Shown: one piece after another, positions 4,490-34,800 of the stretch
How positions within the stretch are numbered: position 1 is the stretch's first letter
Layout: every line of letters begins with the position of its first letter
Source of the DNA: Escarpia spicata
Lineage: Eukaryota > Annelida > Polychaeta > Sabellida > Siboglinidae
Direction of reading: 5' to 3'
Assembly (NCBI GenBank): GCA_963995525.1
Contig: OZ023206.1
Location: forward strand, 65,532,876 to 65,596,875
DNA length: 64,000 bases
Notes under the pieces: model-generated
The model's input: only the letters and a program-made list of their open reading frames with translations
Database searches by the model: none
Told to the model about the DNA's origin: nothing
Made by a program: the position numbers and the translations under genes

Positions 4490-4750
4490 AGATGACGTGC
4501 TCGCCTATCTTTGAATACTAAAAGCGTAAGTATTCGTCCGAATATCCATTCTATGACTTCTAGAGCTCAACCGTGGCATCGCATACAGATCGCTCCGGTT
4601 ATTCAAATCCGGGTCGTTAATCCGTATTTTTTTTTTTTGCAAGGTAGTAGACATCCCATCCACCACCGGGAACCGGAAGTTGTGGCCTTCAGACATAACG
4701 TGATGTAACGTCTTACGCAGGCAGTGTTGAAGGCGGTCACCAAGGGAAGG

Positions 4751-4811
4751 TCAACCTTTCAACCATAAGTGGAACACCTTACGCATCTTGCTTGGTCCAT
4801 TCCAGTAGCCT
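4751..4811 (-). CDS. SQOR: SQOR exon 10 (terminal)
   Basis: After TTTCCAG| one A completes Lys, then it reads [19 protein letters not shown] and stop TGA (4,753-4,751). The GYWxGP-xxRKxFHL ending is typical of SQOR. Confidence 0.92.
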
Positions 4812-28800: not shown

Positions 28801-31800
28801 TATAACAGCCTTAGTGACACAGACCAAAATAACCAAAACATTGACCCCCACACACAGATCTCTCACACAAACACGAGTCATACATCCCAAACCTGGGATC
28901 CAACCTTTGGACCAAACCCTCAAAATGCATCAACCCCTGAACGTCGTAAGAAAACCAAACGTAACACACTTAGCGGAATTCTAATCAATACCAACAGTGT
29001 CAAAAGCATCGCAAAGACAACCCAATTAAAAACAACTATTCAGTTAAATAATCCTGACATCATATTCCTAGTCGAAACCAAAATAGACGAAAACTATCCT
29101 ACCTATTCGTTCCTACCACCTAACTACAGCGCCATCCGAAAGGACAGAAACACACATGGTGGTGGAGTTCTCATTACCTTCCGCGATGACATTGTAGCAT
29201 AACTAGTTACAAAACTAAACTCAAGCTGTGAAATAGTATGGACAAAAATCCATTTCAAACAAAACAAATCCATATACTTTGCATCCTACTACCGACCCCC
29301 CAGTGACCACCTTCAATCCCTTGAAGCTCTCCACGAATCCCTAACAAAATTGTACAGATCACAAAAAACTTCTCCTAATGTAGTTATAGCAGGTGACTTC
29401 AACCTTCCTGATATTAACTGGGGAAAGCAGCAAACCACTCACAACAGAACAGCCAGCAAGCATAACAAACTGCTAGAAATAATTAGAGAATTTGGACTAC
29501 AAAACATGGTCAACGATCCCACACGAGTTGATTCCGGCAATATCCTTGACCTCATACTCACTTCTAATCCATCGATAATTGCTAACACTCACACAACTCC
29601 CTGCATGAGTGATCATGAAGCTGTGACCTTTAACGTAAACCTAAATCCAATCCGTAACAGGAAACCACCACACAAAGTGTTCCAATATAAATCTGCAAAC
29701 TGGGATAAGCTTAAAGATGACATAAAACAACTAACAACAACATACTTTGACACGAACCCAAATTCAACACATGTCAACACAAATTGGAACTTTTTCCGGA
29801 ACAATCTTACTTCATTAGTCAACAATAATATCCCCAGCCGCAACACCAAAGCAAAAACGCACCTCCCCTGGATAACACGTGAAATAATAAGAATACAAAG
29901 AAAACGCAACAAAAGCCATAAAAAAGCAAAACAAACTGGACGTAATTGTGACTAGGAAAGGTTTAGGCAACTCCGAAAACAAGCCATTAAAGCTGCAACC
30001 AAATCCTACTCAGACTATATAAACAATCACATTGGAGACAGCCTAAAAACAAACCCAAAACATTTCTGGTCATTCATTAAAGCAAACAAACGAGAATACA
30101 TTGGCATCCCTACACTGCAAGCAAACGACCAACCAATCACAAATGATCACGACAAAGCAAATACACTTAACAACCAATTTAGTTCCGTGTTTACTCAAGA
30201 AATCTACCCTATCCCCCAACTAGCTCCATCCATTTATCCCGATATGCCCTCCCTCGAAATCGGGATAGACGGAGTAATTAAGCAACTGAAAAACATAAAC
30301 CAAAATAAAGCTACAGGCCCCGACGAACTCCCGGCCAGAGTCCTTAAAGAGACTGCAGTGGAAATTGCCCCCATCATCACACACATTTTCCAGCAGTCAT
30401 ACAACACTTGCAAACTCCCAGATGACTGGCTCCAAGCACTAGTAACACCAATACACACAAAAATCCACAAATCAGACCCAGCTAATTATAGACCAATTTC
30501 GTTAACATGCATTCTCTGCAAAGTTATGGAGCACATCATTCTAAGCAACATGTGGAAACACTTACACAAACACAACATCATCATCCACTTACAACATGGA
30601 TTCCAACCAGGTCTCTCTTGTGAATCCCAACTCATCGAGACAGTCCACGACTGGATGAATGCTATGGACAATAAGACACAAATATATGCCATCCTCCTCG
30701 ATTTCGCCAAAGCCTTCGACAAAGTCCCCCATAAACGCCTCCTATCCAAATTAGCTTTCTATGGAATAACTGGAAACACACAAAATTGGATCAAATCGTT
30801 TCTATCCAATCGCAAACAGAGAGTCTCGGTCAATGGAGCCCTGTCGGACAGCACAAATGTTACATCTGGCGTACCACAGGGCTCAATCCTAGGACCTGTC
30901 CTATTTTTACTCTACATAAACGACATAACCGAAAGTGTCCGATCTTCCGCACGTCTCTTTGCAGACGACAGCATTATGTATCGCAAAATCACATCCGAAA
31001 CCGACCACGAAACTCTCCAATCTGACCTGATCCAACTCCAAACATGGTCTAATAAATGGCAGATGAAATTTAACATATCTAAATGTGTGCATCTCCCAAT
31101 AACAAACCAAACCAAACCCAGACTACATTCATATTCACTCTTTGGCATGCCACTCTCTACCGCCTCTAGCCACACATATCTTGGAATAAAATTAGATTCT
31201 AAACTAACTTGGGCTAACCATATTACTGACACAGCTTCCAAATCTTCAAAAGTCCTAGGCATGATCAAACGAACCCTCGAACCATGCAAACCTGAAGTAA
31301 AAGAAACAGCTTATAACATGCTAATCCGACCAAAACTCGAGTATGCCTCTCCCTTATGGAACCCACACACTGCCACCCAAATTAAACACCTAGAAAGAGT
31401 ACAACACTGTGCTGCCAGATTTGTCAGAAATTACCACACACACCAAACAAACGCAGCAGACCTAATAGCCACCCTTGGATGGTCAATTCTTGAACGACGA
31501 CGCATTATCAAACAAGCCATGACATTTTACAAAATATTAAATAACATAATCAACATCACACCCCCACCAGGTCTTCTAACACAGTCAAAAAACCGTGGCC
31601 ACTACGTAGCCCCTAGGTACCGCATCAATGCAGCAGTGTTCTCTTTCTACACCCGTTCGAATCTGGAATATGATTCCACCACCGATTACTGAACTAGAAA
31701 GCCCCATTGCGTTTCAAACAGCGATTATGAACCTCCCTTTCACCACACCCAATCATCTAAAGTGCCTATAAAATAAACAAACAAACTACCCACAACGCAT

Positions 31801-34800
31801 GCGCACAAACAAGCACCAAACAACTCCTGCGTTAGCTCAAGTTTGGGCTGTTTGAAGTAAATCACCTAAAAAAAGGTAAATTTTATTACAATTTACAGTA
31901 GCATATTGTCTAGTTGTTGGCCGGTGGCACCCACATTTGGTTGCTTTTTAGGTTTATATTCAGGATTAGCATGGATGGACTTAATTCAACCTGTAGTAGA
32001 ATGTCTAGTCGTTAAAATGAAACTGTGGGACTAGTCACTAGGTTTTGTTTGTATTTCTTGATGACAGTAATTAAACAGCAGCCAAGGCCAGTATTTCCAT
32101 CATGTCTTTGTTGTTTCAGTTTATCATGTACATTTTACATGTAAATTCAGCGACATAAATGGTTGAAAGGCTGATCTTCCCTTGGTGACCGCCTTCAACA
32201 CTGCCTGCGTTAGACGTTACATCACGTTATGTCTGATGGCCACAACTTCCGGTTCCCGGTGGTGGAAGGGATATCTACCATCTTGCTAAAAAACAAAAAA
32301 CTAAATACGGATTAACGACCCGGATTTGAATAACCGGAGTGGTCTGTATTCGATACCACGGTTGAGGTATAGATGTCAGGGTGGCCTCGATTCTGATCCT
32401 CGGATTCTGTTTTCTTGTATTCAGTTTTTTGGGGTGAATATTAAAGATGCACTCAACCGATATATCTGCACGGTGTGAATATTAAAGGTGCACACACTCG
32501 ATGTATCGGAGTGAATATTAACGGTGCACTCACCTGATGTATGTGGGGTGAATATTAAACGTTCATTCACAAGATGTATCTGGGGTGAATATTAAAGATG
32601 CACACACCCGATATATCTCGGGTGAATATTAAAAGTGCACTCACACGATGTATCTGGGGTGAATATTAAAGATGCACACACCCGATATATCTCGGGTGAA
32701 TATTAAAAGTGCACTCACACGATGTATCTGGGGTGAATATTAAAGATGCACACACCCGATATATCTCGGGTGAATATTAAAAGTGCATTCACTCGATGTA
32801 TCTCTTGTGAATGTTAAAGGTGCACTCACACGATGTATCTGGGGTAAATATTAAAGGTGCAATCAAATGAAGTGTCGGGGTGACCACTAAAGTGTCTCTT
32901 CAATTCAGTTTTTCGTGCGTCTCATGTATATTGATTTTTACGAAAAATGCAACCCACTTCGTTTGCGCAACGTTTTTGTACGTTGTTTTTGTAAATCACC
33001 TGAAACACAATTCGCTTATTGAATTCTTACACAAGAATCAATTCTAGTTATTTCAAAATCTGAGTTTTCACGTTAGATAGACTGGGGTCTAAGTTTTTTT
33101 CTCACAAAATCCAGGTGACAGATAAATTCAGTAGGCTGAAGGCTAAATATCGGCCCAGCAATAGGCTATGACAAGTTACCAGATGTACCAACCAAACTCA
33201 GTTCTTTCGACCATTACGAAATGTACGCAGTTTTTTATTAAACTGACACCGGGTATCACATCGACTCTTTACACAACACACATCCTGCTTTAACAAACAC
33301 CCGGATTCGCGGTGGGCTAAACCGCTTGACGAAGCAGGTTTATTTATGTATAGGAGTTAGGCTTCTAACGACATTGCGACACTCCACGATATTAGAACGC
33401 GATAACCACGAGTATTAGTCAAAGCAGTTTTTCTCTGTCGTCGCTGTGAAAGTAATGCAAACCTAAAGGTTACTCTGACCTTAGAGTTTTCCACGGACCG
33501 ATCGTGAGTGCCGGTCTATTGCTTCGGTATAATTTTGTTGTTGAAATGGGCATATAAAAATGTGTTGATTGTTTACTCCCTAAACGTGCATGCTCGAATT
33601 AATGTTCATCAGCGGTTACATTTTCTCCACAGACTGAGAGCCTTTGGTGTTAATGAAAAAATACGTGTTCTCTTGTAACGCTCCATTACTGAAAGTGTAC
33701 TGCGCTGTGGGATTAATGCTTGGTTTGGCCATTTTTCTTTTCAGTAGAAATCACAGCTTTCTCGCATGATAAGAATTGCCGTGAAAATCACGGATTCCTC
33801 ATCTCCCATGATCTGTCTTCAGGAGATATTTGAGCAGATATTGAGAAGACAGTCAGCCAAGATCATTTCCAATAATAAATATGCTTTTCATAATGATTTT
33901 CAACTAGTGCCACGTGGCAAACGTTACCGTAGTCCTCGGTGCCCGTTTAAACACTCGTTTGTGCCATTGTCCATCAAACAGCTTAACTCATGATGCCTGC
34001 TGCTAGTGTCACTCATCATAATAATATGCACAGGTATTCTGCCATGTTTTAGCCATGTTTAGCCATGTTCTCAGCATAATAGCATACTATGTGATGTGCA
34101 TGCAATGTATATAATGTTTATTTGTTTATATATTAATTTTTATCTGCTGTTTTATTCCTTGTTTTTGTATAATGCAGTTACGTTTGTTCTACCCCAAGAC
34201 ACATTTTTCAGTAAGTAATATGTTACCTTATCGTACGCTTGCATAAATACTATCGTGCACACCTGCACTACTATCGCCGTCACCACCATTAACAGCATCA
34301 ACACATGCACTATTATCGTCATCACCTCCATTATCATCGTCAACACATGCACTATTATCGCCGTCACCACCATTAGCATCGTCAACACCTGAACTACTAT
34401 CGCCGTCACCGCCATTATTATCGTCAACACCTGCACTACTGTCGTCCTCACCACCATTAACATTGACACCTTCACTACTATCGCCGTCACCATCGTTATC
34501 ATCGTCAACACCTTCACTACCATCGCCGTCGTCACCATTAACATTGTCAACAGCTTCACTACCATCGCCGCCACAACCACTGCTATGACAAAATTCAACC
34601 AATTATGCACTTAAAAGAGAATCCTCAATTCAATTTATGCCCTCCTCACTTGTCATATCAATTAAATCATCAGACAAACTATTAGCTAATTTTATTCCTT
34701 CTAAGCAATTAATCCAAATTATTTTATAAATTGGAATTGTCACGTAATTAAGTTAAGTTTTGGAGCGAGAATTTAATTTAGGCTGACTTTTAAATGAAAT

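Follow-up and report, generated by a model that had tools for sequence, protein, structure and literature searches.

Tandem gene arrays that carry inverted fragments of paralogues are a known general kind of rearrangement, and exons that form circular RNA (circRNA) can be flanked by complementary intron repeats. The hairpin RNAs Nmy and Tmy of Drosophila simulans come from autosomal loci, and their small interfering RNAs are reported to act on X-linked targets (PMC10292708). The Drosophila gene mod(mdg4) is described as having opposite-strand alternative exons with their own promoters, which are trans-spliced (PMC12692577). In the present study, we analyzed 64,000 nucleotides of the siboglinid tubeworm Escarpia spicata (GCA_963995525.1, contig OZ023206.1, positions 65,532,876 to 65,596,875 of the forward strand; hereafter, the window), in which SQOR gene IV, a member of a tandem array, carries in its intron 5 an inverted copy of an SQOR gene tail (exons 8 to 10, or E8-E10). 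This locus resembles each of the above systems in part, and the inverted copy is probably the displaced tail of an array gene that has become intronic debris.

SQOR gene IV has GT donors and AG acceptors throughout, and its spliced frame comprises 458 codons with the stop at the end. Alignment of its last exons and introns with the opposite strand of intron 5 (4751-6453 against 8383-10107) matched 1,544 of the 1,674 aligned bases, with 130 mismatches (92.2% identity) and 80 gap columns. The initial annotation had described inverted, diverged copies of E8-E10 with intact splice sites, in arms of about 1.7 kb separated by a loop of about 1.9 kb that holds E6-E7, and this arrangement was borne out. 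The frames of E8' and E9' (primes denote inverted exons) are open, and the three acceptors (AG) and two donors (GT) of the inverted exons are intact. In addition, E10' was found to be cut by a transposon insertion of 22,051 bp, 4 codons short of the normal stop, so that the inverted frame enters the insertion and terminates as TPFM-stop at 10122. A chance match of the arms was rejected because the BLAST E value was 0. Collapsed haplotypes were rejected because the arms are 8% divergent and have different flanks; the heterozygosity reported for Paraescarpia echinospica, set against this divergence, is 0.63%. The window is free of N, and the inverted gene tail in intron 5 is real and well bounded.

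Table. Features of SQOR gene IV and of the block within its intron 5 (window positions)
Feature	Position	Strand	Evidence or remark
SQOR gene IV, 10 exons, 458-codon open frame	4751-46017	minus	exon joining; PDB match
Exon E1	45766-46017	minus	
Exon E2	41707-41877	minus	
Exon E3	41294-41347	minus	
Exon E4	40666-40863	minus	
Exon E5	39935-40038	minus	
Intron 5, 32 kb	7893-39934	minus	
Exon E6	7787-7892	minus	
Exon E7	7335-7518	minus	
Exon E8	6118-6185	minus	
Exon E9	5498-5676	minus	
Exon E10	4751-4811	minus	
Arm 1: end of intron 7, E8, E9, E10, ~200 bp of 3' flank	4554-6453	minus	alignment
Loop: most of intron 7, E7, E6, last ~490 bp of intron 5	6454-8382	minus	1,929 bases
Left remnant of 42-bp intron-5 minisatellite	8302-8369		intron alignment
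Filler bases at left join	~8370-8383		~14 bases, read by eye
Arm 2, inverted SQOR tail, splice sites intact	8384-10107	plus	alignment
E8'	8639-8706	plus	
E9'	9199-9377	plus	
E10', cut	10062-10107	plus	
Transposon nest inside E10'	10108-32158		22,051 bp; reverse transcriptase, MULE and endonuclease/reverse transcriptase open reading frames; Pfam and end repeats
Arm 2 remainder: last E10' codons and 3' flank	32159-32378	plus	89-90% to 4554-4766
Inverted array-spacer DNA	32379-34250	plus	DNA alignment
Right remnant of 42-bp minisatellite, 7.9 copies, then paralogue-like intron 5	34252-34579		

Full-length similarity and both characteristic cysteines identify gene IV as SQOR, with putative enzyme activity. 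The human SQOR structure 6mp5_A matched residues 49-456 of its product in a PDB search (E 1.8e-147), and the cysteines of the KCAGAPQ and TSCPL motifs, which we take to be the two redox cysteines of SQOR, aligned with those of 6mp5_A and are retained in array units II, IV, V, and VI. Among the 120 protein matches listed, the top match to the gene IV product (82% over 80% of the query) came from Ridgeia piscesae and another close match (76% over 66%) from Lamellibrachia satsuma, both vestimentiferan tubeworms; proteins of Capitella, Urechis, Arenicola, Lingula, and Solemya were 51-56%, up to 57%, identical to units II, IV, V, and VI. SQOR catalyzes the first step of sulfide removal in mitochondria. 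Vestimentiferan tubeworms are reported to rely on sulfide-oxidizing symbionts, and four intact SQOR genes in a tandem array would be a plausible dosage adaptation. The array is unmentioned in the main text (supplements apart) of the siboglinid tubeworm genome papers examined, and no paper on an SQOR array was recognizable by title or abstract start among the matches listed.

A whole-genome DNA search (1,060,511,957 bases, 1,097 contigs) with positions 4490-6300 as the query returned 30 matches, 11 of which lay within 206 kb (65457029-65663066) on the contig of the window (C2). Another 15 of the 30 corresponded to one stretch of intron 9 that is probably a dispersed repeat. Four weaker, exon-sized matches (71-75%) fell outside the array (C2:64032852, C2:72217488-72218314, and C163:12331), to E9 in three cases and to E10 plus flank in the fourth, and may represent more distant SQOR genes. 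Exons were then mapped by tblastn in 255 kb of C2 (65435001-65690000, including the window and 10,200 N); SQOR-like DNA beyond this region was covered by the 4490-6300 search. The map revealed at least six SQOR units, all on one strand, of which four (II, IV, V, and VI) are intact, and the only SQOR exons on the opposite strand were E8'-E10'. The exons of units II, V, and VI project to the gene IV exon lengths; their donors are GT and their acceptors AG, and all three 458-codon frames are open. The first codon of V and VI is not ATG, and translation of these two would begin at codon 5. Full-frame pairwise ratios of nonsynonymous to synonymous substitution rates (dN/dS) among the intact units ranged from 0.28 to 0.58. 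Unit I, of which E1-E4 were seen, is more diverged (main pieces 56-69% identical) and was left out of the comparisons; its tail was not seen. Unit III (C2:65507212-65518672) holds only E2-E5, with about 30 bp of E1 aligning; its E2 acceptor reads TAC, its E4 is one base short, and its E6-E10 are gone, because intron-5 DNA abuts the downstream spacer directly at 65507212/65507219. These defects mark unit III as a truncated pseudogene. A broken E1-like piece lies at C2 65655668-65655871, and two runs of exactly 5,000 N lie in the array region (C2:65475376-65480375 and 65527876-65532875), the second ending one base before the window. A 70-bp minisatellite adjoins E2 of gene IV (41877-42260, minus strand) and also occurs upstream of E2 in units I, II, III, V, and VI. 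Its units reproduce the E2 acceptor together with the first codons of the exon (ttgtag followed by ACCCACTACTACCA...), that is, decoy 3' splice sites; pattern matches numbered 2 in I, 1 in II, 4 in III, 5 in IV, 2 in V, and 2 in VI, with the true E2 start counted among those in III, IV, and V.

Comparison of the introns indicates that a block (~8384-34250), composed of an SQOR tail and array spacer, was inserted into the intron-5 minisatellite of gene IV. According to exon positions, intron 5 is 0.8-0.9 kb long in II and VI, 6.6 kb in V, and 32 kb in IV. The sequence on either side of the block has its counterpart in intron 5 of II, V, and VI, and the interruption in gene IV falls inside the 42-bp minisatellite; the II and VI introns align to IV beside E6 (to 8369 in II), then at 34242-34793, and then from 39825. 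Past 32378, the block departs from the normal downstream DNA common to IV, V, VI, and II. Pieces of the spacer that follows are 85-91% identical to 52889-56028, upstream of gene IV E1, and 82-92% identical to the region upstream of VI, with counterparts about 7-10 kb upstream of IV E1 and 5.5-7.6 kb upstream of VI E1. Because the tail runs into upstream spacer, the block is a rearranged array fragment and no simple mirror of the adjoining exons. From the filler at the left join and the broken minisatellite, we infer end-joining or template switching. A simple inversion between two genes was rejected, as both halves of gene IV intron 5 flank the block. Cut-and-paste of the unit III tail was considered because unit III is without E6-E10, and was also rejected: its deletion begins inside intron 5 and ends in spacer about 3.6 kb beyond E10, and these borders do not fit the block.

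The initial annotation had attributed the copied exons to gene IV itself. The inverted tail is closest overall to the gene IV tail, but with at least six units in the array, the tail of gene IV itself is not the sole possible source. In trees of the full tail, the inverted tail and the IV tail grouped with a bootstrap of 100, with or without unit II, at a distance of 0.094, compared with 0.126 to V and VI. Unit II was left out of two of the four trees and of the branch counts below, its intron 9 aligning at about 69%. In the tree without II, an internal branch of 0.021 leads to terminal branches of 0.046 and 0.048; the two tails split long ago. Their proximity is clear in intron 9 only (93.3% between them; 87-89% for pairs with V and VI). 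Intron 8 of the inverted tail is 90.9% identical to that of IV versus 89.0-89.8% to those of II, V, and VI; E9' is 95.0% identical to its IV counterpart (170/179) versus 96.1-97.8% to those of the paralogues (VI, 175/179); and there are pairs closer than this one in intron 7, E9, and the 3' flank.

Changes were assigned to branches among four lineages at two-state sites only, with uncorrected Fisher tests. On the inverted-tail branch, 3 of 308 exon sites had changed versus 45 of 1,413 other sites (p 0.034), on the V branch 5/308 versus 64/1,413 (p 0.016), on the VI branch 7/308 versus 63/1,413 (p 0.081), and on the IV branch 9/308 versus 42/1,413 (p 1.0). The exon slowdown on the inverted branch, as in V and unlike in IV, therefore suggests that the tail once belonged to a working array gene. 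The initial annotation had given weight to the preserved reading frames, an argument that lost its force in a neutral simulation (substitutions only, starting from the V tail, with the frame and ten splice bases scored). Both features survived in 45% of runs at a rate of 0.0318 and in 32% at 0.047, and E10' is cut by the transposon insertion; frame conservation was thus rejected as proof of function.

We consider it probable that the inverted piece is a displaced tail of an SQOR array gene, an origin supported by the spacer junction and the exon slowdown. In this scenario, E8-E10 and their 3' flank would have been fused to array spacer by an internal deletion, and illegitimate end-joining would have set the fragment upside down into the intron-5 minisatellite of gene IV. 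The transposon nest would later have split the tail at E10'. Gene IV keeps an intact SQOR reading frame. The block would most likely be transcribed within intron 5 and discarded with it, and it presumably has no function. The unstable array, in which unit III is without E6-E10 and most of E1, would also be consistent with displacement. Several observations weigh against this scenario. The grouping with IV falls to 52% without intron 9 and therefore does not fix the source gene. The three counted exon changes on the inverted branch are all amino-acid changes (T to M, A to T, and N to K) at positions common to the other four tails, and they look like recent decay rather than purifying selection. 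One silent change at the three-state site 5626 is uncounted, and the constraint signal rests on these three changes; it would equally fit an inverted tail still in use. Pairwise dN/dS values of the inverted tail range from 0.34 to 1.50, and no array unit is without exactly this tail, the unit III deletion having different borders.

An in-place inverted duplication of gene IV's own tail, by template switch or fold-back and with no function, would explain why IV and the inverted tail are the closest relatives overall, both in intron 9 and in the full-tail bootstrap. This is unlikely, since the inverted tail, once intron 9 is set aside, lies at about the same distance from IV and from the paralogues, the grouping drops to 52% when that intron is removed, the block carries spacer DNA that does not adjoin the IV tail, and change along the inverted branch was slower in exons than in introns. 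An assembly artefact, in which a misjoin at short repeats set a foreign array fragment in intron 5, would fit block borders that both lie in or beside minisatellite, the similar repeats throughout the array, and the nearby 5-kb N runs. The absence of N from the window, the filler at the left join, and minisatellite remnants of just 68 and ~330 bp, easily spanned by long reads, make such an artefact quite improbable. The inverted tail might otherwise serve as an alternative C-terminus through trans-splicing, similar to mod(mdg4). Its intact acceptors and donors, the frame open to TPFM-stop at 10122, and inverted exons that changed less than introns accord with this idea. It is nevertheless extremely unlikely: no AATAAA or ATTAAA occurs within 914 nt after 10107, the first lying 915 nt into the transposon, and between a third and almost half of the neutral runs kept the frame by chance.

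A role at the RNA level is the remaining alternative to a displaced and inert tail. The transcript of gene IV would present the antisense arm, then E6-E7, and then E8-E10. The minimum free energy (MFE) fold of the 5,357-nt sense RNA (10107 to 4751) had an energy of -3100.6 kcal/mol, and its predicted duplex took up 1,554 of the 1,703 arm bases, in line with the initial suggestion that the pre-mRNA could fold with E6-E7 in the loop; a control with the intron-5 arm shuffled (one mononucleotide shuffle) gave -1343.5 kcal/mol and 172/1,703 paired bases. The predicted duplex includes 20, 19, and 19 of 20 bases at the E8-E10 acceptors and 9 and 10 of 10 bases at the E8 and E9 donors. If intron 5 persists, the pre-mRNA is thus predicted to fold into a duplex of about 1.55 kb over the E8-E10 splice sites. 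The arms match perfectly for 21 bp or more in 19 places (up to 66 bp), and of the 248 21-mers that lie within single exons of E8-E10 in each gene, the unspliced inverted arm contains 84 for IV, 88 for II, 95 for V, and 89 for VI. Because all four intact genes match about equally, an antisense small RNA would match the whole array. These features would allow a functional hairpin that slows E8-E10 splicing, yields E6-E7 circular RNA, forms an edited duplex, or supplies small RNAs dampening the array. However, since the 3' end of intron 5 is transcribed before arm 1, timely splicing would remove the antisense arm, and the arms could pair only if intron 5 were still present once E8-E10 had been transcribed. 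The arms are also no more alike in exons than paralogues are, and exonic pairing bears no apparent sign of upkeep, with E9 and E9' matching at fewer positions than E9' and VI E9 and with gene IV having the fewest matching 21-mers of the four intact genes. A functional hairpin, although physically plausible, is therefore very unlikely, and an RNA-level function of the inverted tail is possible but unsupported. A more specific and highly speculative idea is that gene IV is a built-in dampener of the array, in which slow removal of intron 5 would yield a 1.5-kb duplex blocking E8-E10 as well as antisense small RNAs against all four intact paralogues. If so, the dosage of sulfide detoxification would be tied to splicing speed, and the antisense match would have been kept up, which would account for the slower exon change on the inverted branch. 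Whether a genome tolerates, silences, or exploits a long self-complementary stretch across essential exons is a question for which this inverted tail provides a natural test.

The transposon nest that splits E10' is built from two units that share their ends and are arranged head to tail: further copies of its left end (10108-10370) and right end (31915-32158) meet in this order inside the nest, at 27200/27201. A Pfam scan of ten nest open reading frames (ORFs) at the curated cut-off matched reverse transcriptase (PF00078, two ORFs), MULE (PF10551), and endonuclease (PF14529). No clear target duplication was seen by eye where SQOR sequence resumes after the nest; integration through a circle would fit this observation and the head-to-tail units. 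The ORFs at 22373-26363 are presumably DIRS-like, and those scanned (22373-22990, 23697-24398, and 25499-25936) were unnamed by Pfam. A 32-bp unit is repeated 30 times at 98% identity at the end of a retrotransposon-like ORF (24339-25300), and one frame reads HMLDDFVI, which we take to resemble the active-site box of reverse transcriptase. A second stretch of gene IV intron 5 that is extra relative to II and VI (34794-39824) contains a long CA repeat and ORFs that we assume to be LINE-like. Upstream of gene IV, a 37-bp-period array (55539-55982) recurs inverted at 32430-32883, and an 18-bp-period minisatellite (53839-54786) has no counterpart in the inverted block. Toward the end of the window, a 63-bp in-frame repeat (ENKIYVMYDPPHLIKHEEQLQ) of about ten copies (62398-63036, minus strand) lies in a presumably transposase-like 268-aa ORF, and the DNA at 62962-63514 recurs at 715-1266.

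As in other rearranged tandem arrays, the SQOR locus comprises similar and partial units, deletions, and insertions, including the truncated unit III; it differs from this general kind in that the fragment lies within an intron of an intact member and is turned toward E8-E10 of the same gene, 1.9 kb away. E6-E7 of gene IV, like circRNA exons, are flanked by complementary intron stretches, intron 7 (6186-6460) matching its inverted copy in intron 5 at 226 of 259 positions (87%), although here the complementarity, known from DNA, runs over exons too. The opposite-strand 3' exons with intact acceptors and an open frame, in the same locus as the common exons, are reminiscent of mod(mdg4) as described (PMC12692577), but the inverted SQOR exons repeat exons already present, and a transposon interrupts the last of them. 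Similar to the reported Nmy and Tmy (PMC10292708), the span of gene IV holds a long, highly complementary inverted repeat matching protein-coding genes (1.7-kb arms, 92.2% identity, 1.93-kb loop; 84-95 of 248 21-mers in each of IV, II, V, and VI). Those are separate loci, however, whereas here the arms are 92% identical and one of them is itself the coding gene.

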